Made by a program: the position numbers and the translations under genes. A DNA stretch of 64,000 nucleotides. It comes from Roseivivax jejudonensis. Its GTDB lineage: Bacteria; Pseudomonadota; Alphaproteobacteria; Rhodobacterales; Rhodobacteraceae. A model generated the notes under the pieces. The model saw only the letters and a program-made list of their open reading frames with translations. It made no database searches and had not been told where the DNA came from. This document shows positions 6,416-29,228 of the stretch, in pieces. The DNA is taken from contig NZ_FWFK01000002.1 in the NCBI RefSeq assembly GCF_900172265.1, positions 1 to 64,000 of the forward strand, in the 5' to 3' direction. Every line of letters starts with the position of its first letter. Position 1 is the stretch's first letter.

Positions 6416-7423
6416 CTAAGTGAAATTCCGGTCATTCGCCTCCCGGAATTCAGTTGGCGAAAAGCCCGTCCACGTGCGGAAGCTTCTCGAAAAGCTGTTG
6501 GCGTCACGGTAGGCTAGGATGCTTGCAATCTCGTCGACGCGCAGGGTGGACTTGGTGAGATATCGGATCGCCATGTCGCGCCGCGTGGCGTCGAGGAGCA
6601 CCTGATACGACGTCCCTTCCTCGTGCAATCGCCGCTGGAGCGTGCTGCGGCTGATCCCCAGGGCCAGGGCCACATCTTCGGCTCCTTTGCGGCCCGAGGG
6701 CATCAGATCGATCAAGGCTCCCCGGACCCGATCGGCGACGGGCCAACGATTGTTCTGTGCCGCCAGCTGAAGGCTGAGGTCGGCCTCGATATCGGCCCAG
6801 AGGGCAGGGTTCTCGGAGACGAACCGGCGCTTGGCATCCTCGGGCGCAAAGGCCACGTATGCGGCCTGCGACCGCTCTGGCATGACTCCGAGATGACCGG
6901 CGATCATATGCCGATCCTCTTCCGACCCGTCGAAACCGGCTGCGACAGCGCAGACCGGATGGGCGGTCGCGCCGCGAATGTTCTCCACCACGGTGACCAG
7001 GTGGAGGGCACCGAGGTTCGGCGGCATCGGCACGCGGGCGTCAACGCTGTCGAATTCCAGTCGCAACAGCCCGCCATCCCAGAACACGCGCATCAGCGTC
7101 GGGCCGAGCAGCGACTTGAATTGCGCCAAGCGCAACAGCCCCGTTTCCGTGTCGGGCGCGCAGGACAACGTGAAAAAAACCGGGATCACAGGTCCGCGCG
7201 AGATCGCAACACCGAGGTGTGGCACATAGTCAGGGCGCGGCGACAACACCTCCATCGTGTTCCAGCAGTCAAAATACTGCTTCGCCGTCCCGCGCAGCTC
7301 GCTTCGTCCGTAGGGAAGCGCGCCAAGGCCGGAGGTCTCGAGCATCACCTGTGGGTCCACGCCAAGGATCCGGCACACCACGTCGGTCGCCATGAAAAGG
7401 GGATAGGTCTGTGAGTTATCCAT
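6416..7423 (-). CDS. AraC-family transcriptional regulator (paralogue 2)
   Basis: The 335-residue protein has the same plan as the regulator at 2788-3810: an N-terminal sensor region (about 1-220) with VFFTLSCAPDTETGLLRLAQ, and a C-terminal AraC helix-turn-helix pair ending AYRDANSFSRSFRTWTGFSP. It is divergent from the iorAB-type oxidoreductase operon starting at 7606, which it probably controls through the tandem repeat at 7491-7530. Similar AraC proteins accompany aromatic N-heterocycle and phenolic catabolic genes, but the inducer is not visible here. Confidence 0.85.
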   Translation of the reverse strand: MDNSQTYPLFMATDVVCRILGVDPQVMLETSGLGALPYGRSELRGTAKQYFDCWNTMEVLSPRPDYVPHLGVAISRGPVIPVFFTLSCAPDTETGLLRLAQFKSLLGPTLMRVFWDGGLLRLEFDSVDARVPMPPNLGALHLVTVVENIRGATAHPVCAVAAGFDGSEEDRHMIAGHLGVMPERSQAAYVAFAPEDAKRRFVSENPALWADIEADLSLQLAAQNNRWPVADRVRGALIDLMPSGRKGAEDVALALGISRSTLQRRLHEEGTSYQVLLDATRRDMAIRYLTKSTLRVDEIASILAYRDANSFSRSFRTWTGFSPTEFREANDRNFT

Positions 7424-7490
7424 GTGCGCGAGCTTTCAAATGCCTCGCCTCGATGCCACGGGCGGGCGGGCAGGACTACCCCTGAATGGC

Positions 7491-7530
7491 GCCTGACCCG
7501 ATCTGCATGTGCCTGACCTAATATGCATGT
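7491..7530 (+). promoter_or_regulatory. tandem 20-bp repeat, probable AraC operator of the iorAB operon
   Basis: GCCTGACCCGATCTGCATGT (7491-7510) is followed immediately by GCCTGACCTAATATGCATGT (7511-7530), matching at 17 of 20 positions. The core ATxTGCATGT recurs exactly 20 bp apart, the head-to-tail geometry expected for one AraC-family activator. It lies 76 bp before the iorA-type start codon and between the divergent regulator and its presumed target. The core resembles the ATATGCAAG core next to the paralogous regulator at 3881-3920. Confidence 0.65.
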
Positions 7531-7605
7531 CGCCGTCCTGCGCTGTTGGGCTTAGCATGAGGAATGAAACGCTAAATTTCATCCACTAGCCGACTGGAGA
7601 AAGCT

Positions 7606-8064
7606 ATGGACCTTACGATAAACGGCTCCAGTCACACGGTTGACCTGCCAGATGACATGCCTTTGCTCTGGGCGCTGCGGGACGGTCTGAATATCACCAG
7701 CGTCAAATATGGCTGCGGCATTGCACAATGCGGGGCCTGCACTGTCCATATTGATGGTTTGGCGGTGCGGTCCTGTCAGGTGGCCTTGGCCGATGTCTGG
7801 GGTGAGATAACGACGATCGAAGGGCTGGGCACGCCAGACGTGCTGCATGCAGTGCAAGAGGCCTGGATCCAACACCAGGTGCCGCAATGCGGATACTGCC
7901 AATCGGGGCAGATCATGCAGGCCGCCGATCTCCTGGCGCGCAACCCTGAACCGACCGACGAAGATATCGACGCCGCAATGTCGGGCAACCTGTGCCGCTG
8001 CGGCACCTATCCGCGCATCCGCGCCGCCGTCCACGCTGCGGCCAGCGTGATGCGAGAGGCCTGA
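7606..8064 (+). CDS. iorA: isoquinoline 1-oxidoreductase-type 2Fe-2S subunit
   Basis: The 152-residue protein has two [2Fe-2S] domains in the order typical of the xanthine-oxidase family small subunit. A plant-type ferredoxin domain has Cys in [14 protein letters not shown] and RSCQ. An all-helical domain has Cys in [11 protein letters not shown] and [11 protein letters not shown]. It passes electrons from the molybdenum site to an acceptor. The length and the fused two-subunit organisation (no separate FAD subunit) match IorA of the isoquinoline/aldehyde oxidoreductase group. The next gene, the Mo subunit, follows after three bases. Confidence 0.85.
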
Positions 8065-8067
8065 GCC

Positions 8068-10311
8068 ATGGGTCGCGCCAGCACCATTGCCCGCCGTACT
8101 TTCCTGATCGGATCGGCCACGATTCTCGGCGGGGTCGCCTTCGGGGCTTACTTCGTCAGCCGCCCGACCTCCAACCCCTTGCTGAAGGGTCTGCCCGAAG
8201 GCCAGGCTGCCCTGACGCCCTTCGTCAAGATCACGCCGGACGGGATCACCCTGATCGTGCCGCGCGCCGATGTGGGCCAGGGCATCGCCTCGACCCAGGC
8301 CATGCTGATCGCCGAGGAACTGGATATCGACCCAAGCACTACGACGCTCGACCCCGGACAGCCACATCAGGCTTATTTCAACGCCGCCGTCGCCGCAGAT
8401 AGCCTTCCTTTTCCGGCCTGGAACCATGGTTTCGTCGCAAGCACGGTGCGCGACCTGATGGGACAGGTCGCGCGGCTGACCAGTTCGCAGTTCACCGGCG
8501 GATCGACGTCTGTCGCCGACCTGCACGAAACCCTTCGCCTTGCCGGCGCGACCGCCCGCGAGACTCTCAAGGCCGCCGCTGCGGCGCGCACGGGCGTGCC
8601 GAGGTCGCACCTGCGGACGGAGGACGGGCAAGTCGTGCTGCCTGACGGCACGCGCATTCCCTATACCGAGCTTTCGGCCGAGGCGGCGGCCATGGATACC
8701 GTACTGGATGTGACGCTACGCCCCGCCTCCGAATGGACGCGTTTGGGCAAGCCCTACCAACGGCTCGACATCGTCGCAAAATCGACCGGGACGCAAGGCT
8801 ACGGCATCGACGTGGTCCTGCCCGGCATGCTCCACGCCACCGTGCGCGCCAATCCGGGACGTGGCGGAACAATGGCGGGTTATGACGCCGAGACGGCCCT
8901 TTCCATGCAAGGGGTGCGGTCGGTCGTCGAGGTAAACGAAGGGCTGGCGGTTATCGCCGAAAACACCTGGTTCGCGTTTCAGGCGGCGCAGGCGCTCGAC
9001 GTCGAGTGGCTGCCCCCCGCCTATCCCGCCAGCTCCGCCGCAATGTGGCAGGTGCTGGCGGATGCCCGCACCGACGAGTTCCGCAACAGCCGCCTGCGCG
9101 ACGACGGCGATATCAAGGCGGCGTTGGACGGCGCCACAGTGATCGAGGCGGAATACCGATCGCCTTTCCTCGCCCACGCCGCGCTCGAGCCGCTCAGCGC
9201 CACGGTACTGGTCGAGGCGGATAGGGTGCAGATCTGGACCGCGACGCAGATTCCCGCCGTGGTGCGCGACGCGGCGGTCGCGCTGACCGGCCTGGTTCCT
9301 TCACAAGTCACCGTCCATGTCCTGCCCGCGGGTGGCAGCTTCGGCCGCAGGCTCGACCACGATTACGTGGTGCAGGCGATCCAGATCGCCGCCACCATGC
9401 CCGGCACGCCGATCAAGACCACCTGGAGCCGGGAAGAGGACATGACCCATGACTACCCCCGGCCGCTGCACATGGCCGTTGGCCGGGGCGCCGTGTCGGA
9501 TGGCCGCGTGCTGGCCTACGACCTCGACAGCGTCAGCCCATCGCTGATCTCGTCTTGGTTCGGGCGCATCGCAAGCATTCCGCCGGGGCCTGACACGGCG
9601 CTGGTCTGGGGTGCCTACGACCAACCGTATGCCATCCCCAACTATCGGGTGACGGGCTATGCTGCACCGCCGCTGGTGCCCGTTGGATCGTGGCGGTCGC
9701 CCGGTGCCTGCTCCAACAGCTTCTTCCACGAAAGTTTCCTGTCCGAATTGATCCATGCCGCCGGGTCCGACCCGCTGGAGGAACGACTGCGTCTGATAGC
9801 CGACGCCAACTCGCGCCTCGTGCTTGAAGCGGTCGGCGAGATGTCGAACTGGGCGGGCGTGGACATCGGGCCGGGGCGCGGGAGGGGCATCGCTTTCGCC
9901 CATACCCATGGCGTTCCGGTGGCCGAGGTCATCGACGTGACCGTGACCGAAAGGGGCATCCGCATAGACGAGGTCTGGATCGCCGCCGACTGCGGCACCG
10001 TCCTCGACCCCGTCAACGCCGAGGCACAATTGACTGGGGCCGCTATTTTCGGCCTTGGCCACGCGATGAATTGCGAGCTGACTTACGAGAACCATGCCGT
10101 GCAGCAGACCAACTTCCATGCCTTCGAGGGGATGCGCCTGCACCAGACGCCGCTGTTTCATACAAGGCTTCTGGAGCGCGCCGAACAGGTGCGCGGACTG
10201 GGCGAACCGGCCACCGCACCTGCGGCCCCGGCGCTTGCCGACGCGATCTTCGCCGCAACCGGCCAACGCCTGCGCGAGATGCCCTTCAACAAATCGGTGG
10301 ACTTCGCATGA
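8068..10311 (+). CDS. iorB: molybdopterin aldehyde/isoquinoline oxidoreductase large subunit
   Basis: The 747-residue protein starts with a twin-arginine-type leader (ARRTFLIGSATILGG), so the folded enzyme is probably exported. Two Mo-binding domains follow; PVGSWRSPGAC (about residue 535) and the late GLGEPATAPAAPA, with its conserved Glu, are characteristic of the IorB/xanthine dehydrogenase family, where the Glu takes part in hydroxylation next to the Mo. These enzymes hydroxylate N-heterocycles or oxidise aldehydes, using water as oxygen donor. The substrate here is not shown. The last codon overlaps the start of the cytochrome gene (ATGA), indicating coupled translation. Confidence 0.87.
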   Translation: MGRASTIARRTFLIGSATILGGVAFGAYFVSRPTSNPLLKGLPEGQAALTPFVKITPDGITLIVPRADVGQGIASTQAMLIAEELDIDPSTTTLDPGQPHQAYFNAAVAADSLPFPAWNHGFVASTVRDLMGQVARLTSSQFTGGSTSVADLHETLRLAGATARETLKAAAAARTGVPRSHLRTEDGQVVLPDGTRIPYTELSAEAAAMDTVLDVTLRPASEWTRLGKPYQRLDIVAKSTGTQGYGIDVVLPGMLHATVRANPGRGGTMAGYDAETALSMQGVRSVVEVNEGLAVIAENTWFAFQAAQALDVEWLPPAYPASSAAMWQVLADARTDEFRNSRLRDDGDIKAALDGATVIEAEYRSPFLAHAALEPLSATVLVEADRVQIWTATQIPAVVRDAAVALTGLVPSQVTVHVLPAGGSFGRRLDHDYVVQAIQIAATMPGTPIKTTWSREEDMTHDYPRPLHMAVGRGAVSDGRVLAYDLDSVSPSLISSWFGRIASIPPGPDTALVWGAYDQPYAIPNYRVTGYAAPPLVPVGSWRSPGACSNSFFHESFLSELIHAAGSDPLEERLRLIADANSRLVLEAVGEMSNWAGVDIGPGRGRGIAFAHTHGVPVAEVIDVTVTERGIRIDEVWIAADCGTVLDPVNAEAQLTGAAIFGLGHAMNCELTYENHAVQQTNFHAFEGMRLHQTPLFHTRLLERAEQVRGLGEPATAPAAPALADAIFAATGQRLREMPFNKSVDFA

Positions 10312-10946
10312 GACCGACTTTGCGCTTTCCCCTGATCGTCGCGACCAGTCTCGCGCTCGGAACCCTTGCCTTTGCCGAGTATGAACACAGCCTCGACCTG
10401 TCCGCGCTGCCGGAGGTCGGGACCGTCCCGACCAAGGACGGGCTGGCTGCCTGGGACAATATCCACACGGTGTTGTCGCACCCCCGCTGCCTCAACTGCC
10501 ATGTGGGGGCGGACAACGTTCCCCTCTGGGGCACGGCAGAGACTCCGGACCGCATCCACGGCATGGCGATCAACGCCGGTGAAAGCCGGATCGGGGCCGA
10601 GACGCTGTCGTGCAACGCGTGCCACCAGACCTCGACCCGGCCTAATACCACGCACCATGCCGCGCCGCATACCGGCATGGACTGGCGACTGGCGCCGGTC
10701 GAATTCCAATGGACCGACCGCAGCAGCGCCGAGATCTGCGCCCAGATGCGCGATCCGGCGCGTAATGGCGGACGCGACGCGGCCGGGCTGATCGACCACA
10801 TCCTGCACGATGCCGAGTTGATCGGTTTCATCACATGGAGCTTCGAGCCCGGCGCGGGCCGCGACCCGGCCCCCGGCAACTTGCAGGCGCATCTGGAGGA
10901 TATGGCGATCTGGACAGCCGCCGGGATGCCGTGCCCGGAGCAGTAA
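10308..10946 (+). CDS. periplasmic multi-haem c-type cytochrome of the oxidoreductase operon
   Basis: The 212-residue protein has a signal peptide (MRPTLRFPLIVATSLALGTL..) and two haem-binding motifs, CLNCH and CNACH, with possible axial Met/His further on. Its start ATG overlaps the stop of the Mo subunit, so the two are co-translated. The third gene of IorAB-like operons is usually a cytochrome which takes electrons from the 2Fe-2S subunit to the respiratory chain. That, together with the Tat leader on the Mo subunit, points to a periplasmic oxidation linked to respiration. Start chosen by the overlap and the signal peptide. Confidence 0.82.
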   Translation: MRPTLRFPLIVATSLALGTLAFAEYEHSLDLSALPEVGTVPTKDGLAAWDNIHTVLSHPRCLNCHVGADNVPLWGTAETPDRIHGMAINAGESRIGAETLSCNACHQTSTRPNTTHHAAPHTGMDWRLAPVEFQWTDRSSAEICAQMRDPARNGGRDAAGLIDHILHDAELIGFITWSFEPGAGRDPAPGNLQAHLEDMAIWTAAGMPCPEQ

Positions 10947-21607: not shown

Positions 21608-22300
21608 TCAACCGGCGGTCGCGCCGCCATCGACCGGCACCAGCGCCCCTGTCATGTAGGCAGCCCCCTCCGACGCGAGAAACGCCGTCACGCGCGCGAT
21701 GTCGACTGGCGTGGCGACGCGACCCAATGGGACCGATGCGCCGAATACCGCGAGTGCCTCGGCGCGCGCCGTGCCGCTCAGACCGGCGGTCAACATCTGC
21801 GTGTCCGTGTCTCCGGGACAGACCGCGTTCACGCGGATCCCGTCGGCGGCGCGATCGAGGGCCATGCATCTCGTCAGCTGTGCGACCGCGGCCTTCGAGA
21901 CCGCGTAAGCCACCGCGCCGCGCGCCCCGGTCAGCGCCCAGTCTGACGCGATGTTGACGATGCAGCCGCGGTGCGCCCTGAGCGCCGGTATGGCCGCGCG
22001 CGACAGCCGGAACACTGCTCCGAGATTGACATCCATGATGTGGTCCCAGTCGGCATCCGACGTGTCCTCGGCGGTGCCCTGTATCAGGACGCCCGCATTG
22101 TTGATCACGACATCCAGCCGGCCGAAAATCTCGATTGCGGCCTCCACCGCCTTGCTTGAGGCGGCCGGGTCCCGCAGGTCCGTCGCGAGAAAATGGGCGG
22201 CGGCGCCTGTGGCACGAAGCTCCTCCGCCACCTTTTCCCCCTCGGCCGTCCTGCGCCCGAGCAAAAGAAGCGCGAATCCGTGGTGGCCTGCTCGAGAAGG
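21608..22300 (-). pseudogene. short-chain dehydrogenase/reductase missing its N-terminus
   Basis: On the minus strand the frame runs from just after TAG (22301-22303) and reads GFALLLLGRRTAEGEKVAEE, then VVINNAGV (NNAG motif), IVNIASDWA (catalytic Ser), AYAVSKAA (YxxxK) and a C-terminal GALVPVDGGATAG. The first 25-30 residues, including the cofactor-binding GxxxGxG, are absent and no start codon with a ribosome site is visible. The break at about 22300 marks a rearrangement, perhaps the edge of the mobile segment that follows. Confidence 0.75.
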
Positions 22301-22685
22301 CTATCCACAAATATGAGCGCTGGATGGCCGGTAAAGGCGATGCTGGATCTGGCAGGTAGGAAAGGATCGCGGGCACAAAAGGAGGAAGTTGCCTGCCATC
22401 CTTTTAACTCGCCAGACTTGAGCTCGATGTCCTCGATCTAGCGAGATATTCCGTGGCGCAAGCGGGTGGCGGAAGGCGCAGCCGCCATGAGAAAGCTGTA
22501 TACGCTCCAAAGACGTAATAATGCCGCCCGCGCGCGTCATGGCCTTCAGACCGCGCTGAACGTCCGCACGAATTCGCTGGCGGGGTTCGTGCGAATGTCC
22601 GCAGGCGGACTGTTGTCATTCCCACTCTTTGTCTACGCGAAACCGGAGCCCAGCGCTCAGATTGACCTAGGAGCGCTGGTGCCTA
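22301..22685. other. gap after the SDR break, no recognisable gene
   Basis: About 385 bp of mixed composition lie between the beheaded SDR gene and a small minus-strand gene. Frames are open in places, but none has a recognisable domain, good start context and sustained coding character. The stretch is lower in GC than the Nit1C operon. The junction at 22300 suggests this DNA arrived with, or was rearranged by, the neighbouring transposition module. Confidence 0.5.
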
Positions 22686-23045
22686 TCAGGCGGAATCCGT
22701 GGACTGGCTGAGTAACCTCGACAAGTAGGCATGAAGTTCGGCGGCAGCTGCTTCCGCATCTTCTCGGGCAAGATCACGCATCTCGATCAGCTTCGGCCCC
22801 TTCGCGGGGACGGCCCACTTGTGCGGGTATTTGTTGTAGATCTCGTCGACGGCGCCACGGATCTCCTCGGCGTGCTAGTCGAGAGCCTTGGTCTGCTCCA
22901 CGCCAAGGCTGATGTAATCGAACCGGACGTCGGCCTGCGTCCGCCTATAAAGACAGAGAACGTAAGGTTCGCCGCTGGCTTCGCACTCCGCGTAGTATCG
23001 ATTGATGCTGTCGGTATCGGTTTGCGCTGCCGAAAGGTGGGGCAA
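22686..23045 (-). pseudogene. small protein gene with an in-frame TAG at codon 57
   Basis: The minus-strand frame starts at TTG (23043-23045) with ACAGGAGA just upstream, a strong ribosome site. It reads MPHLSAAQTDTDSINRYYAE..., ..GEPYVLCLYRRTQADVRF.. to Asp56, then TAG (22875-22877). It continues without another stop as HAEEIRGAVDEIYNKYPHKW.. and ..LAREDAEAAAAELHAYLSRL.. to TGA 22686-22688. Both halves look coding, and the second is a charged helix. The total would be about 118 residues. No family recognised. A nonsense mutation is the simplest reading, but this is the second such case in the window. Confidence 0.55.
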
Positions 23046-23084
23046 GGTTCTCTCCTGTCAGGTGGTTTGTCGCACTTCGTTCGG

Positions 23085-23264
23085 TCAGGTCATCGCGTCG
23101 TCGTCTAAGCAGGCGAGGACTGAACGTCCGTCGCCGAAGCTGACCCTCCCGGCCATCATTCTTTGAATCGCGGATACAGGTTTGACGTTCGGATCGCCAC
23201 CAAACGAAGGGAGGGCGATCACAGCGCCGTGAGGCGCGGGCGTAGTCTCGTCAAAGAGGTCCAC
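23085..23264 (-). CDS. small hypothetical protein, 59 residues
   Basis: The minus-strand frame runs from GTG (23262-23264) to TGA (23085-23087). It encodes VDLFDETTPAPHGAVIALPS, then FGGDPNVKPVSAIQRMMAGR and VSFGDGRSVLACLDDAMT, mixed-composition residues with no repeats. It lies 39 bp upstream of the TTG-started small gene on the same strand, so the two could be an operon. The start has no clear ribosome site, which weakens the call. No known domain. Confidence 0.4.
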   Translation of the reverse strand: MDLFDETTPAPHGAVIALPSFGGDPNVKPVSAIQRMMAGRVSFGDGRSVLACLDDDAMT

Positions 23265-23587
23265 GCGAGATCGTCAGTCTCTCATTTTTTCGCAACAAAA
23301 ACAGATGATTGACTCCTCTTGCCCCAGAATCAACAAGGCCTGCGAAGTTCTTCTTTTGGATTTTCACGGACTGCGAAGACCTATCGTGGGCGGCCGGCAG
23401 ACTTCGGCTGACGCAATGACGAAAGAAAAAAGGCGCGCCATACCGGCGCGCCCATGAGTAAAGGGCCTGATCGCCCCAGTAACACTTGTCACGGTAGAGG
23501 CCGAGAACGGTCCGGACAAGCGCGATCCCAGGTCCTGTGAAGGAAATCGCTACCCCGGAGCGCGTGCGGTCCGGGAAGGAGGAAGTC
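23265..23587. other. leader region of the transposition operon
   Basis: These 323 bp separate the small minus-strand genes from the tnsA-like start. They hold the minus-strand hairpin at 23426-23452 and two similar stretches CTGCGAAG (near 23340 and 23370). In Tn7-like elements the tns genes read inward from one end, so a transposon end may lie in or just left of this stretch. I could not identify a convincing TGT..ACA terminus. Confidence 0.35.
23426..23452 (-). terminator. strong Rho-independent terminator on the minus strand
   Basis: Two copies of the palindrome GGCGCGCC (23432-23439 and 23445-23452) can pair into an 8-bp all-GC stem with a 5-base loop. On the minus strand the stem is followed by TTTTTT. 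No minus-strand gene is recognised on its upstream side (23453 onward), so it may shield the small genes from antisense transcription or end an unseen small RNA. Confidence 0.6.
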
Positions 23588-24325
23588 ATGTCCTATTTCC
23601 TGGACGAGGAAACGGGCCGCCACCCGACGGGAAAGAAGCCGGCGCTTCAAGTCGCCCCTATCCATGGGGTTCTGCCGTACGACGGTTGCCGGAACCCGAT
23701 GACCCGCAGCACCGTCTCGAGCCGTGTCTCGGCGACGTTCGCGCTGCCGGCGACAAACGGGGTCCCGAAGGTCTTCCATTTCGAGAGCAAGTCCGAGTTC
23801 GCTGTCGCCCTCGATGCGCTGTTGGACCCGAGCGTTTTCGGCTTGGAAGTCCAGCTCCCGCCGGTGCGCTACTGGTGCCGCACGAGCCAAAAGCGCCGGT
23901 CCCATCACTTCGACATGAGATTGACCTTCGACGACGGGCTTCGGCGCGCGGTATTTGTCCGGAACGGCGACAGCCTTTCCAAGCGCAAGACGCAAGACGA
24001 GATCGAGGACATCTTCAACGCGATCCCTGAGGATTTCGCGGACGAGGCCATCGTCGTGAACGGTGACCACTTTACGAGAGCTTACCGCGACAATCTGCGC
24101 CGGATCTGGGAAGCATCCGCGGAGGAGGACGCTGACGCCGATGAGCGGCTCGAAGAGGCCGCACGGACGACCAATTACTGGCTGCTTCAGGATCTCATCA
24201 AAAAGAGCGACCTGCGCTCACCGCGTGCCTTCGGCGCTGCTTTGAGGCTCCTCGGTCGTCGGATCCTGCGGGCAGACTGGCATGCTGTGATTGGCGTCCA
24301 CTCCCGCATCGAGTTGAACGCGTGA
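23588..24325 (+). CDS. TnsA-like transposition endonuclease with altered active site
   Basis: The 245-residue protein begins at ATG 23588 behind GGAGG and is the first gene of a Tn7/Tn5053-like module. Residues 62-130 follow the TnsA/restriction-endonuclease core: FHFESKSEFAVALDALLDPS (Glu66/Glu70), then HHFDMRLTFDDG (Asp109). The strand that should carry the (E/Q)xK pair reads RRAVFVRNGD, giving Phe123 and Arg125 in its place. TnsA normally cuts the 5' ends so the element leaves by cut-and-paste; loss of these residues would favour copy-in cointegrates or a purely structural role. The assignment rests on fold pattern and operon position. It overlaps the transposase gene by GTGA. Confidence 0.65.
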   Translation: MSYFLDEETGRHPTGKKPALQVAPIHGVLPYDGCRNPMTRSTVSSRVSATFALPATNGVPKVFHFESKSEFAVALDALLDPSVFGLEVQLPPVRYWCRTSQKRRSHHFDMRLTFDDGLRRAVFVRNGDSLSKRKTQDEIEDIFNAIPEDFADEAIVVNGDHFTRAYRDNLRRIWEASAEEDADADERLEEAARTTNYWLLQDLIKKSDLRSPRAFGAALRLLGRRILRADWHAVIGVHSRIELNA

Positions 24326-26478
24326 CAAGCACGCCCCTCTATAAGGTTCCTTCGGGATCACGCCTTGTTCTGGAGGGGCGTCACTGGCTGGTCACCGGCC
24401 GCGAAGAGTACGGCTACGCCGTGGAAGGCGTAGAAGATGGCGAGTGCCTCACTCTCTCTTATGCCCGCGTCGACAGCGCCATCAAGGAACGGGTCTGCGA
24501 GGTCATCAAGCCAGCGGACGCCGAGGTGCGCGAGGCATTGGTCAAGTTCACCGGCGGCTTGGAAATCTTCGAGCAATTGTCACCGGAGCAGCAGGACACG
24601 GTGAGAGCTCGCCTCGCGATCGTCACGGCGATGGACGAACTCGAAGCCGAAGGTTTGCGCTTGACGCAACGGAGCATCAGCGAGAAGGGCGCACTCCGCT
24701 CCACTCTACTGAACCGCGCGACCGAGCTGTCGAAGGGCAGGAAGTTCATTGAGGCCGCACGTGGGGGAAAGTTCAAGCGGCTTTTCCAGTGCCCGCAGGG
24801 ACGCACGCTTGCGCGGTATCGGCAGAATTACCATCGCTATGGTCGGAACCCGGTTGCCCTGATCGATCGAGATCATTTGAAGGGACGGCCAGCTGAGCGC
24901 CTCAGCTACCTCCAGGAGCGCTTCATCGACTACATTATCGAGCAGTGGAACCGGGTCGAGAAGCCGACGCTGGCAACGCTAGTCGAGGACGCAAAGCCGG
25001 TTTTCCATGTCCCCCCCGAGCAGATCGCCGACGGCTTCAAGTTTCCGTCGATCACCACAATTCGTGCCCGTATCAAGGCGATGTCCGAGGTGGTTAAGGC
25101 GATCGGTCGAAGCGGAGTGCGGCATGCGACGAACCTCAAGGGAGCAGGGTCGACCGACGTCCGAGCCTTGATGTACGGCGAAAAGGCCGAGATTGATCAA
25201 GTCTATTTGTCGATCTTCACGGATGACAGCGGTGCAGTCAGGTCGCGCGTCATCAACCCGAATGAGGTCGATGAGGACCTGGCAGAAAACGAAATCCGGA
25301 GACTGTGGCTTCACGCGATGTTCGACGTGGCGACGCACCTCCCGCTCGCATCGATCATCGCCGAGACGGCCGATGCCGATCACAGCCAGGCTCTGCTGCG
25401 CATGGCGACGCGGGACAAGACCCGGGAAAAGGTTCGTTACGAGTGCAAGCGGGATCCGGCGCCGGCGGTCCATATCGCAATGGCAACGGCAGATAATGGC
25501 AGCGCAACGCGCAACGGCGCGATTTACGCCAGCCAGCTAGGCATGGGGACAGTGGTCGAACTCGGCCGCGCCTACCATGCGACCGACAAGCCCTGCGTTG
25601 AGCGGGCGTTCGGAACCATGCAGTGGCAGGTCCTGAATTTCCTCCCGGGATACACCGGCAGCCGGCCCGGAGAACTTGAGGGCTACGAGCCGAAAAAGTC
25701 CGCGAAACTCACACGTGATCAGCTTTACGGGATTATTACCCGCTTCCTCGTCGACGACTACTCGCATAGCGAGCACCGTGGCACAGGCATGTTCAATGCC
25801 ACGCCTTGGGAAAAGCTCGAGGAAGCCGTCTCCGTTTATGGGGGAATCGACGCGCCTTCGCAAATGCGACGCTGTCTGCACCTCGGCGTGAAGACGCAGG
25901 CCAGCACAACGTCCGAAGGCGTGCTGGCGTTCTACCTCCCGTTCAATTCGACCGAACTCCAGCGGTATGCCGGGGGCACGTCGAAGCGTGTCACGATCCA
26001 CATGGATCCGGATGATCTTCGGAAGGCATACGTCACAGCTGAAAAGCATGACAAGGTCATCGAGGTCGACCTCAGAATGACCGCTCTGCAGGATCTGACC
26101 CTCGAGGAAGCCATCGAAGTCATGGAAGCAGCCTGTCGGCGTGATCCGAAGGCGCAGGAACTTCATGATCGCCACCTTCATGAAGTGCGGAAGCGCTTCG
26201 CACAGGAGTCGGGTTTCTTCCCGGACTCGCGCGATCCCTCGAATTACCAGACCATGGACAAGCTCAGGCGGCGGGCTGACCGGCTCGCGCAGGTGGAGAT
26301 GCGTCCGACCGGTATCACGGGGCCGACCGCGCCGCCTGGCCAGGTAACGGATCGCTCCTCGGGCAATCACGTCTTCAAGGTTAAGAAATCTGGTGCGCCT
26401 GATCAGGGCATCGGGGACAAGAAGCCCTCCAAGTCGGGGCAGGCAAGTTTCAAGCCAATCAAGGAGAGCATGCTGTGA
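24322..26478 (+). CDS. tniA: TniA/TnsB-type DDE transposase
   Basis: The 718-residue protein has N-terminal DNA-binding helices (about 1-230) and an integrase-fold core with the catalytic triad Asp292 (KAEIDQVYLS), Asp391 (TADNGSATRN) and Glu427 (KPCVERAFGT). There are 35 residues between the last two, the DD(35)E spacing of Mu/TnsB/TniA enzymes. A Mu-type C-terminal beta-barrel and basic tail follow, where TnsC/TniB would bind. The triad is intact, so the enzyme may be active. Start is GTG 24322, overlapping the stop of the TnsA-like gene. Confidence 0.87.
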   Translation: MTSTPLYKVPSGSRLVLEGRHWLVTGREEYGYAVEGVEDGECLTLSYARVDSAIKERVCEVIKPADAEVREALVKFTGGLEIFEQLSPEQQDTVRARLAIVTAMDELEAEGLRLTQRSISEKGALRSTLLNRATELSKGRKFIEAARGGKFKRLFQCPQGRTLARYRQNYHRYGRNPVALIDRDHLKGRPAERLSYLQERFIDYIIEQWNRVEKPTLATLVEDAKPVFHVPPEQIADGFKFPSITTIRARIKAMSEVVKAIGRSGVRHATNLKGAGSTDVRALMYGEKAEIDQVYLSIFTDDSGAVRSRVINPNEVDEDLAENEIRRLWLHAMFDVATHLPLASIIAETADADHSQALLRMATRDKTREKVRYECKRDPAPAVHIAMATADNGSATRNGAIYASQLGMGTVVELGRAYHATDKPCVERAFGTMQWQVLNFLPGYTGSRPGELEGYEPKKSAKLTRDQLYGIITRFLVDDYSHSEHRGTGMFNATPWEKLEEAVSVYGGIDAPSQMRRCLHLGVKTQASTTSEGVLAFYLPFNSTELQRYAGGTSKRVTIHMDPDDLRKAYVTAEKHDKVIEVDLRMTALQDLTLEEAIEVMEAACRRDPKAQELHDRHLHEVRKRFAQESGFFPDSRDPSNYQTMDKLRRRADRLAQVEMRPTGITGPTAPPGQVTDRSSGNHVFKVKKSGAPDQGIGDKKPSKSGQASFKPIKESML

Positions 26479-27437
26479 GTTCGTTCCTAAACGAAGCCGT
26501 CGCCCAGGCCGCGAACGCCAACAACGGCCTTCACTATCCGCTCGACCGCGGGAGCACGCTCCGCAAGTCGTTCAGTGATCTCCTCAGTCGGCACGTCGGT
26601 AGGCTGCGGGGGTCCGCCCGGTTCGAGGCCGAAATCCTCGTCGTCACGGGCCTGAGTGGGACCGGCAAAACCCGGGAAATCACCAAGATGCTCGACGAGT
26701 TCAATGGGGACGAGCTTCCGCTGCCCGACGGAAAGCCGGCACGCGTTGTCCATTGTCTTCTTGACCGGAAGGGCGGCTGGAAGGACCTCGGACGCAAGAC
26801 CTTGAAGGCGATGGGCTACTCCCTCTCCGAGAGAGCGCGGCTGACACAGAGCGAGATCTGGGAGCGCGTCGCGTTCCAGGCCCGGGCCCAGGGCATCATC
26901 GGAGTCTACTACGACGAGGCGCAGCACATCTTCGCGGGTAAGTCGGACAACGACCGCGAGACCATCCTCGACAGCTTCAAGACCCTGCTGAAGTCGCATG
27001 ATTGGCCGCTGATGCTGATCATGTCGGGCGTTCCCGAGCTCGCCCCTCACGTCAGGTCGCTGGATCAGGTCTATTCCAAGGTGACCTACCTTCATTTCGA
27101 AAAAATCGACCTTCCGAACAATTACGAAGTCGTCCACGAGATCGTGGGCAGCTACGCCTTGAAGAACGGTCTGGCCGTTGAAGATGAGATCGTCAGCCAT
27201 GAGTTCTATCACCGGCTCGCCACTGCCGCTGCCTTCCGGTGGGGGCTGCTCATCAACATGGTTATCGAGACGACCGCGAGGGCCGTCGAAGCCGGGTGCG
27301 AAACCCTGAGTTGGCAGCACTTCACGGATAACTGGGTGGCAAAAACGCAGATGAACCAGATCGCCACGCCGTTCACCCATGAGGGCTACGAGACGATGTT
27401 CCGGCCGGACAAGCCGTTCCAGACAGCGATCGGCTAG
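26475..27437 (+). CDS. tniB: TniB/TnsC-type AAA+ transposition regulator
   Basis: The 320-residue ATPase has Walker A GLSGTGKT (residues 59-66) and Walker B with Asp147-Glu148 (GVYYDEAQHIF). The sensor-1 strand LMLIMSGVPEL and the AAA+ lid follow, as in TniB/TnsC. These proteins form ATP-dependent filaments that mark the target and activate the transposase, usually recruited by a TniQ/TnsD protein. None is found in this window. Start is GTG 26475 in GTGA overlap with tniA, and a terminator follows 30 bp after its TAG. Confidence 0.87.
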   Translation: MSSFLNEAVAQAANANNGLHYPLDRGSTLRKSFSDLLSRHVGRLRGSARFEAEILVVTGLSGTGKTREITKMLDEFNGDELPLPDGKPARVVHCLLDRKGGWKDLGRKTLKAMGYSLSERARLTQSEIWERVAFQARAQGIIGVYYDEAQHIFAGKSDNDRETILDSFKTLLKSHDWPLMLIMSGVPELAPHVRSLDQVYSKVTYLHFEKIDLPNNYEVVHEIVGSYALKNGLAVEDEIVSHEFYHRLATAAAFRWGLLINMVIETTARAVEAGCETLSWQHFTDNWVAKTQMNQIATPFTHEGYETMFRPDKPFQTAIG

Positions 27438-27466
27438 CCGCATCATAAGCTCCAGACCCTTGAATG

Positions 27467-27492
27467 AACCCGCGCTTCGGCGCGGGTTTTTT
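27467..27492 (+). terminator. Rho-independent terminator of the transposition operon
   Basis: AACCCGCG, loop CTTCGG, CGCGGGTTTTTT: a 6-bp GC stem (27469-27474 with 27481-27486) with a UUCG-type loop and six T, placed 30 bp after the tniB stop. Confidence 0.85.
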
Positions 27493-27498
27493 CGTGTC

Positions 27499-27656
27499 TG
27501 CGCATGGCGCAGAGCAGGGGAGAAGTTCAGTATAAGCCTGCGCATGCTTTTACGGTTTGCGCACGCATTGGCGTTTTTCGGCGCGGATGCGCGATTAAGT
27601 AATTGATAATAATGATGAAATAAGGAAGGCGAATCGCAGGCGTGCATTCTTGCGCA
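27499..27656. repeat. cluster of TGCGCA motifs after the transposition operon
   Basis: TGCGCA occurs at 27499, 27539, 27558 and 27651, with a near-copy TGCGCG at 27588, all in about 160 bp. In between is an AT-rich patch (AAGTAATTGATAATAATG). Repeated short motifs next to transposase operons are often transposase-binding sites of the element end. I find no matching cluster left of tnsA, so the interpretation is weak. Confidence 0.35.
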
Positions 27657-27782
27657 CTGTTTTGCCGTGTCTGACTGTTTCACCGGTCGCAGGCGGCGCG
27701 GAGCCGGGCGGCTGATCGGGCAGGGGGCCCTGCGTCCGCAGCGGCGCTGGACCGGTGCCGGTTCGGGACGATATTGGCCGGC

Positions 27783-29228
27783 ATGATCCGTCGCCACATC
27801 AAGGCCGTGACCGCCGCGCTGGCTGCCGTGCTGGCACTCCTGTCGATCTGGCAGCTGGAGCAGGCGCGCGCCGGGATCGACCGCGACGCGGTGCGGCTCG
27901 ACGGCACGCCGGCGACGATCTACCGCGCGCCCGGGTCCGGGGGACAGCTCGTGCTCGTCTCGCACGGCTTCGCGGGGTCGCGGCAGATGATGGAGGCGAT
28001 CTCGCTGACCCTCGCGCGCGCGGGTCACGTCGTTGTGGCCTTCGACTATCCCGGGCACGGCCGCCACCCCGGACGGTTGTCGCCCGACATCACGCGTCTG
28101 ACCGGGACGACCGCCGATCTCGTGCGCCAGACCCGCGCGATCGCAGAGGCCGCACGGGCGCGCACGGGGATCGCGCCGGTGGCGCTGGTCGGACACTCGA
28201 TGGCGACCGACGTGATCGTCCGCGCCGCGGCTGACCTCGACGGGGTGACCGGGGTCGCGGCGATCTCCATGTATTCCGATCGGCTGAGCCCCACGCATCC
28301 GCAACGGCTTCTCGTCGTGTCCGGTGCGCGCGAGACACGGCTGCGCGAGGTGGCGCGCACCGCGGTGGCGCAGGTCGAGCCCGTGGCGCCGGGCGATGTC
28401 GCGCGGGACGGGGCCGTGGAGCGCCGCGCGGTCGTCGCGCCACGCGTCGGGCATGTGGGCGTGCTCTGGTCGCCGGCGACGCTGCGCGCGGTTGCGGACT
28501 GGTTCGGCCCCGTGCCGGATCTCGCGCGGACCGGCCCGTGGATCGCGGTGTTGCTGGCTGCGATCCTGGCATTGGCCTGGCCGTTGACGGCGATGCTTCC
28601 GCGCGGTGCGCGCGACGGCGCGCCGGCGCCGCTGCGGCGCGCGGCGATGGCCGCGGCCCTGCCCGCGCCGGTGGCGGCGCTCGCGGCGATGAGCGCGCTA
28701 CCGGTCGGCGGGTCCGCCGGCTTTGGCGGGCTGGCGCTCGGCCTGTTTCTGTGGGGGACCGGCGCGCTTGCGATCCTGCGGCCTCGGCTGCGCCTCGGGT
28801 GGCCGGACGTGGCGGCTGCCGGTTTCGTCATCCTGTGGGGTCTCGGGGTCTTCGGCCTCGCGCTCGACCGCTACGGGGCGGCCTTCGTGCCGGCCGGGCC
28901 GCGTCTGCCGCTGATGGTCGCTCTCCTGCCCGCGACGCTCGTCGTCGGTCTTGCCGACCGGGCGCTCGTGGAGGGGCGCGGAATTCCGGCGCGGCTCCTG
29001 TTGCGCCTGCCGCTGCTGCTCGCGCTCGGCGCGGCGATGGCGCTCCGGCCGACGAGCGTCGGGCTTCTGTTCACCATATTGCCGGTCCTTGTGCTGTTCG
29101 TGCTCGTACACGGCTCCATCGCCCGTTGGGCGGGCATGCGGGGTCGCCGCGACGGCGCCGCGCTGGGGCAGGGCGTCGCGCTTGCCTGGGCCATCGCGGC
29201 GTCGACGCCGCTCTTCGCGACGGCCTGA
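27783..29228 (+). CDS. alpha/beta hydrolase with C-terminal multi-helix membrane domain
   Basis: The 481-residue protein has an N-terminal signal-anchor helix, an alpha/beta-hydrolase domain (about residues 45-240) with VLVSHGFAGSRQMM, FDYPGHGRHPG, the nucleophile elbow LVGHSMATD (Ser) and a late APRVGHVGVLW (His), and then about eight hydrophobic helices from residue 255 to the end. The soluble domain probably faces the periplasm. Such hydrolase-membrane fusions are uncommon; substrate unknown. Start may be ATG 27783 or TTG 27774; neither has a strong ribosome site. It follows the transposition module and could be cargo or resident DNA. Confidence 0.72.
   Translation: MIRRHIKAVTAALAAVLALLSIWQLEQARAGIDRDAVRLDGTPATIYRAPGSGGQLVLVSHGFAGSRQMMEAISLTLARAGHVVVAFDYPGHGRHPGRLSPDITRLTGTTADLVRQTRAIAEAARARTGIAPVALVGHSMATDVIVRAAADLDGVTGVAAISMYSDRLSPTHPQRLLVVSGARETRLREVARTAVAQVEPVAPGDVARDGAVERRAVVAPRVGHVGVLWSPATLRAVADWFGPVPDLARTGPWIAVLLAAILALAWPLTAMLPRGARDGAPAPLRRAAMAAALPAPVAALAAMSALPVGGSAGFGGLALGLFLWGTGALAILRPRLRLGWPDVAAAGFVILWGLGVFGLALDRYGAAFVPAGPRLPLMVALLPATLVVGLADRALVEGRGIPARLLLRLPLLLALGAAMALRPTSVGLLFTILPVLVLFVLVHGSIARWAGMRGRRDGAALGQGVALAWAIAASTPLFATA

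Follow-up and report, generated by a model that had tools for sequence, protein, structure and literature searches.

The genes tnsA, tnsB and tnsC of Roseivivax jejudonensis lie at 23588–27437 of a 64,000-nucleotide stretch of DNA (contig NZ_FWFK01000002.1, positions 1 to 64,000; hereafter the window). We interpret this copy as a left-truncated remnant of a Rhodobacterales Tn7-like transposon that has kept intact TnsABC proteins and could be served by a TniQ protein in trans, a reading to which we give a probability of roughly 0.78. The genome holds the tnsABC half of the element intact at one site, with the sole left end found and a TniQ gene beside nrdJ on another contig, C14. Because no left end can be recognised for the window copy, this copy is most likely a left-truncated remnant. 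A sequence-only reading of the module had called it Tn7/Tn5053-like and TniQ-less, and had offered three explanations: that it picks targets through TniB alone, that it uses a trans factor or that it is being domesticated. That interpretation is partly supported; the system is not TniQ-less.

The operon is a compact three-gene unit on the plus strand, as had been described. tnsA (23588–24325, ATG start) encodes a TnsA-type endonuclease subunit, tnsB (24322–26478, GTG start; formerly labelled TniA) a DDE transposase and tnsC (26475–27437, GTG start; formerly TniB) an AAA+ regulator. GTGA overlaps join the neighbouring genes, all three frames are intact, and the operon ends in an intrinsic terminator, a hairpin with a T-tail at 27466–27489 (+). 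The TnsB triad (D292, D391 and E427) does not vary in 17/17 aligned TnsB proteins, and TnsC carries Walker A (GLSGTGKT) and Walker B (YYDEAQ) motifs; the earlier descriptions of both proteins hold. TnsB matches the PADLOC TnsB model (E = 5.6e-14) and falls slightly below the cut-off of Pfam Mu-transpos_C. Searched against the Protein Data Bank (PDB), a profile of the 17 TnsB proteins best matched PseTnsAB of a type I-F3 CRISPR-associated transposon (CAST; 2.3e-26), with TnsB of Tn6677 (7e-17), of 7svw/8aa5 (6e-10) and of Tn7 (6e-06) behind it. TnsC is above the cut-off of Pfam TniB (7.6e-06), and its sole TnsC matches among solved structures were to VchTnsC, weakly (0.012).

Assignment of TnsA rests on its predicted fold. 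It has no significant sequence-family match in Pfam or NCBIfam (the NCBIfam match is sub-threshold, at 15 bits against the 110 needed), and a profile search of PDB sequences gave no TnsA. An AlphaFold model built from 22 sequences has a mean pLDDT of 84.5, and its four best Foldseek matches in the PDB are all Tn7 TnsA (1t0f, 1f1z and 9bw1; E = 9.1e-09 to 1.6e-06), with modest TM-scores of 0.38–0.51 by query length. A Paracoccus ferrooxidans protein bridges the window TnsA to the TnsA of a second set, on contig C12 of the same genome (24%, 3e-08), which itself barely attains the Pfam TnsA cut-off. Residues E70, Q89 and D109 are invariant across 25 sequences. At position 125 the window TnsA has R, where locus L113 and the C12 copy have K. 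The window set is a Tn7-like TnsABC and not a Tn5053-like one. Tn5053/Tn402-like (Tni) transposons carry tniABQR with a resolvase and without TnsA, and we rejected membership of that group because TnsA is present here (a resolvase was not searched for). As for CRISPR, which the sequence-only reading had reported absent, no CRISPR-like direct repeats occur at 14–38 kb of the window, where cas genes were not sought by family search.

No TniQ gene lies within the window, in agreement with the reported absence near the module. Elsewhere in the genome, where the sequence-only reading had advised looking, the TniQ family (PF06527) is represented twice, on contigs C12 and C14. On C14 a 610-aa TniQ is followed by an end resembling the window right end and then by the 3' end of nrdJ, the name used here for a gene 80% identical to a Cereibacter one annotated as adenosylcobalamin-dependent (B12-dependent) ribonucleotide reductase. 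The left end occupies C14:2350–2377, between TniQ and nrdJ. A 28-mer built from it occurs once each, with 0 mismatches, in this genome (by construction) and in Roseivivax marinus and R. sediminis (not by construction), and the reversed pattern does not occur. There is no left end in the window, nor, by pattern, in the rest of the genome except C14. Conversely, a 106-base right-end piece matches only the window copy in this genome, and tnsABC has no other close copy there. The trans factor envisaged earlier thus gains a candidate in this family-matched TniQ, which has a matching left end beside nrdJ and would act in trans. The C12 genes form a second, separate Tn7-like set in the order TniQ–tnsA–tnsB–tnsC, with a TnsB 26% identical to that of the window (locus L030, C12:84000–103999; TniQ at 7038–9110 on the minus strand, tnsA at 9444–10349, tnsB and tnsC to 13572).

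The right end of the element can be placed to the base. Homology to the R. marinus copy (genome G002; 97%) runs up to 27676 and then stops, and homology to the R. sediminis copy (G006; 92%) ceases at the identical base; within the right end itself (27438–27676, +) identity is 98% and 82%, respectively. Beyond 27676 the flanks of the three copies differ. The outer end, TTGCGCACTGTTTTGCCGTGTCTGACT, lies at 27650–27676, and more TGCGCA words occur near 27498, 27538 and 27557. A pattern search found a like right end 239–263 bp 3' of tnsC in 12/14 copies; L101 and L111 failed the pattern, and L113, which has no such end in 420 bases, was left out of the count.

Past mobility is indicated by R. marinus. 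There a left end with the outward flank GTAGA adjoins nrdJ, and the right-end flank, TCTAC, is its reverse complement, which identifies a 5-bp target duplication (the chance of such a match is 1 in 1024 for a single comparison). Both R. marinus contigs terminate in what we read as IS21-like ends, so the interior of the element is broken there. What we read as insertion-sequence ends break tnsA in the R. marinus copy and tnsB in that of R. sediminis. The earlier suggestion to look for ends and 5-bp duplications was thus fruitful for the right end and for R. marinus; the window copy yielded no recognisable left end. The scan for duplications covered 11 stretches and found a left end by pattern in four: R. 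marinus, S. pallidus, C14 of this genome and P. abyssalis. The flank agrees with the one expected in R. marinus, is unlike it in S. pallidus and C14, and for P. abyssalis there is no expectation. S. pallidus also has a second left end directly after its right end.

Several relatives have neighbouring elements at close quarters. By sequence reading, 5 bp separate the right and left ends of adjacent elements in R. sediminis (TGCAC) and at L111 (ATAAG), and at L110 (near 12212) and L102 (near 12141) an inverted left end follows 1–6 bp past the right end, giving tandem elements at one site. The left ends of L031, L200, L092, L167, L169, L176 and L037 contain, about 50–60 bp inside, a TTGACA-like word reading outward to nrdJ, a possible outward promoter.

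To place the window copy in its family, we scanned genome contigs, one genome per species for 84,980 species, with a TnsA alignment. This gave 29 loci in 28 genomes, the hosts of which we take to be Rhodobacterales. In 12 of the 29 (L102, L104, L105, L109, L110, L113, L114, L116, L118, L120, L125 and L127), TniQ lies on the tnsA contig, upstream and divergent, at a distance of about 0.5 to 32 kb. The same arrangement is found, with two TniQs, on plasmid pFER4 of P. ferrooxidans. The TniQs are about 570–690 aa long. At the level of genomes, TniQ is present in 26/28 with a related tnsA (25/26, with R. marinus and G075 added). The two TniQ-less genomes are G168 (L124), in which tnsA is truncated and no tnsB is in reach, and R. 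marinus, in which tnsA is cut. A TniQ in the same element of relatives, named beforehand as something that would overturn the TniQ-less interpretation, is seen at genus level and above, and not within the species. On pFER4 (L086, 8477–13910) a gene for an ORC/CDC6-like AAA protein lies between the two TniQ genes, upstream of tnsA, and this protein could be an additional target-selection part.

The association with nrdJ extends beyond this genome. Among stretches grouped by the kind that their TniQ most resembles, nrdJ is in view in 6/14 of the C14 kind (this genome, R. sediminis, L163, L167, L169 and L176) as against 0/8 of the C12 kind; at L163 the left end adjoins nrdJ, with TniQ 6.7 kb off. 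In a TnsB tree, a starred clade (98/95, 11 rows) joins the window, which we labelled C14-type ourselves, with five C14-type partners and one C12-type partner, and 5/6 C12-type rows fall in a different starred clade. The TniQ-type labels are clustered on this tree (11 and 6 of 500 shuffles as low), yet two changes are needed. L108, L110, L119, L123, L124 and L126 were excluded from it for short or broken frames. Fragments of TniQ and tnsB also occur within a few kb of the nrdJ 3' end at two loci, L034 (G059) and L087 (Cereibacter sphaeroides), probably remains of an old decayed element at the nrdJ home site.

The leader of tnsA contains a conserved 120-base structured element at 23414–23533 that is probably a cis-antisense RNA, as judged from its sequence conservation and fold on the minus strand (covariance model score 95.7 bits). 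It is strongly conserved among loci whose TnsA proteins are 45–60% identical. Its minus-strand fold comprises a nested hairpin, one of the form GGGC..GCCC and a GC-rich one, terminator-like (23431–23453, −), with T residues after it. Across 20 aligned loci, pairing holds in 95.2% of cells, and sliding the partners lowers this to 34–49%. Both sides are altered in 9/25 pairs, a level reached by 0/500 shuffles, although kinship alone can lift related sequences above such shuffles without structure. On the plus strand, the word TTGACTC at 23309–23315, a candidate −35 of tnsA, is conserved 219–293 bases 5' of tnsA in 20/22 loci examined (L104 has TTGACGC and L122 none); it could start a tnsA mRNA whose leader holds the complement of the antisense RNA.

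With the covariance model, 22/32 distinct tnsA loci of the family score 69 bits or more, the element always lying upstream of tnsA; 20 of these 22, the window included, built the model, and L125 and L168 did not. The ten misses (L101, L103, L114–L117, L119, L120, L127 and L128), which had been left out of the alignment, score at best 17 bits, so the element is not essential to the family. Outside the 32, the more distant sets at C12 (L030) and in G047 (L039) gave no match. Among 147 related genomes, matches above 31 bits occur only in this genome, in Wenxinia marina (G058) and in G054, the last beside a tnsA fragment; with weaker matches (E up to 0.01) the total is 26/147 genomes. Rfam gave nothing at cut-off for window positions 22200–27800 (best suhB, 24 bits against a cut-off of 41) or for six relatives. 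We also considered the RNA as a guide to nrdJ and rejected this, as the longest common word is 8–9 bases in 4/4 species and 30–82 of 100 shuffles equal that.

The leader element could instead be a structured 5' leader on the plus strand, or an operator in the DNA to which a repressor or TnsB binds, an alternative that we rank below an antisense RNA and still count as a substantial minority possibility. As in a binding site, its loop CCGTTTTCGG is nearly unchanging, and so are the words CTTG and TCTA; the plus strand can form hairpins too; and a sigma-70 promoter scan found none on either strand, CTTG..TCTA being a minus-strand promoter in our own reading only. Two strand-specific features speak instead for RNA from the minus strand. 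Five to eight T stand in the 8 bases past the hairpin in 20/20 sequences, against 0–3 on the plus strand, and G-T cells outnumber A-C cells in the minus-strand reading (46 versus 10, or 19 versus 10 without two closing pairs).

Several observations weigh against a remnant served by a TniQ beside nrdJ. In the genome itself, C14 begins inside what we read as an IS3-like element and the TniQ start lies immediately behind the end of its transposase, so expression of this TniQ is doubtful. The window right-end flank (GTTTC) does not pair with the C14 left-end flank (ACGCC); with no target duplication between them, a single insertion left undisturbed does not account for the two halves, which are most simply explained by two insertions, or by a tandem pair, with one half lost from each. 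The copy may also sit at a site other than nrdJ, because there is no nrdJ in the window and the hydrolase gene beside the window right end is remote from nrdJ in G003, G004, G007 and G008, where the two lie on different contigs or 2.6 Mb apart. In the family, a TniQ or part of one lies downstream of tnsC at L112, L115 and L125, and in T. mobilis the nearest TniQ lies outside the right end, so that we do not count T. mobilis as complete. nrdJ is not visible in 8/14 stretches of the C14 kind, several of which are short, the C14-type L113 falls outside the window's TnsB clade, and a target duplication was found only for R. marinus, of three comparable pairs.

The left flank of the window copy is scrambled. 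An SDR gene (about 21608–22287, minus strand), apparently truncated at its 5' end, abuts at about 22287 a foreign segment (22287–22441, strand unassigned) that is 84% identical to a place in G001:C17. Between this segment and tnsA, a reading frame at 22716–23045 (−) has a plausible ribosome-binding site, an in-frame stop at 22875–22877 and no Pfam match at cut-off. The ancestral place of the hydrolase was uninformative on the insertion: G007 has the order amidase, hydrolase, XRE regulator, and in this genome amidase and XRE are adjacent, at C9:156 kb.

The operon might have been domesticated and kept by the host for another task. Its intact frames, the lack of a second close copy in the genome and the missing left end would fit, as would the dN/dS values against R. 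marinus of 0.13 for tnsA (186 codons), 0.22 for tnsB and 0.25 for tnsC; against R. sediminis, tnsC gives 0.12 and tnsB 0.20 (251 codons). However, these ratios show past purifying selection and not present use, and selection during mobile life also explains them. The close copies are cut in both R. marinus and R. sediminis and sit at different sites, which leaves no conserved host locus. With no positive evidence for it, we consider domestication improbable.

We regard as very unlikely a truly TniQ-independent element, in which TnsC (TniB) alone picks targets and TniQ was lost in a new lifestyle. In its favour, neither tnsABC nor the right end is damaged, nrdJ does not adjoin that end and the window is free of TniQ. 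Against it, relatives keep TniQ, upstream and divergent, both TniQ-less genomes have a damaged tnsA and no left end was found near the window copy; the earlier proposal of targeting through TniB alone is thus unsupported. Finally, it is just as improbable that a chimeric assembly produced the junction at 22287 and that tnsABC in reality adjoins the TniQ and left end of C14: C14 does start inside the IS3-like element by TniQ, and the genome yielded a single close right end and a single left end, but the assembly is continuous through tnsABC, the junction lies about 1.1 kb from the RNA element and the GTTTC and ACGCC flanks form no target duplication.

Under the preferred reading of a left-truncated remnant, the complete form of the element, a composite of several relatives, would run from the nrdJ 3' end through the left end, a divergent TniQ, cargo, the leader and tnsABC to the right end. 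As is established for Tn7, both ends would be cut out by TnsB and TnsA, a TnsD-type TniQ bound to the nrdJ 3' end would mark the target, and TnsC would couple target and transposase. The antisense RNA, about 70–120 nt long, would be transcribed leftward across the tnsA leader, be closed by the conserved terminator and restrain tnsA. The window remnant would not be mobile as a unit, and its proteins could act in trans with the C14 TniQ. The full proposal, an nrdJ-homing Rhodobacterales Tn7-like family with tnsABC under a dedicated cis-antisense RNA and, here, engine and selector in trans, is tentative, and we give it somewhat less than an even chance.

The element resembles Tn7 (TnsABC with TnsD at glmS) in its TnsA fold, DDE TnsB and AAA+ TnsC, in the TniQ-family protein by the 3' end of a conserved gene and in the 5-bp target duplication of the R. 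marinus copy. It differs in that the left end adjoins nrdJ and not glmS, the ends read TCTGRCT in contrast to the TGT..ACA of Tn7, tnsABC points toward its end, TniQ is divergent and an RNA element lies over the tnsA leader. Type I-F3 CASTs (PseCAST and Tn6677) have the nearest TnsB of solved structures and supply the sole TnsC matches. Unlike them, the present family has TniQs of the length given above, no array was seen at 14–38 kb (where cas genes were not sought), and the RNA shares words with the nrdJ end no more than shuffles do, in all four species.

Home sites of Tn7-like elements in the consulted portions of three papers are glmS, tRNA genes, comM, guaC, yciA, ffs, rsmJ and parE (PMC10293859, PMC8649781, PMC11406308); the word nrdJ is absent from the accessible text of PMC10293859 and PMC11406308. 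At the level of titles and abstract openings in the openly licensed PubMed Central literature, we found neither nrdJ homing by Tn7-like elements nor an antisense or noncoding RNA of this kind for them. The regulators named for such elements in excerpts of PMC11406308 and PMC9938897 are transcription factors. The closest analogy in function is IS10 RNA-OUT, where, according to the excerpted source, a short antisense RNA is complementary to the 5' portion of the transposase mRNA (PMC6601013). The likeness is one of mode of action, and here the putative RNA would serve a Tn7-like operon and carry hairpins and an intrinsic terminator.

According to the part of PMC8649781 consulted, tnsD/tniQ is present in 73–97% of Tn7-like transposons per clade, so TniQ-less copies are not rare as such. 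Since the genome has a target-choosing gene at another locus, the module is for the most part ordinary, and a supposed TniQ-less transposon is removed from the odd cases. What is gained is a likely home site, the nrdJ 3' end, together with both ends and an architecture for a Tn7-like family of the Rhodobacterales. The leader RNA, if real, would provide an RNA-level brake on a Tn7-like transposase.

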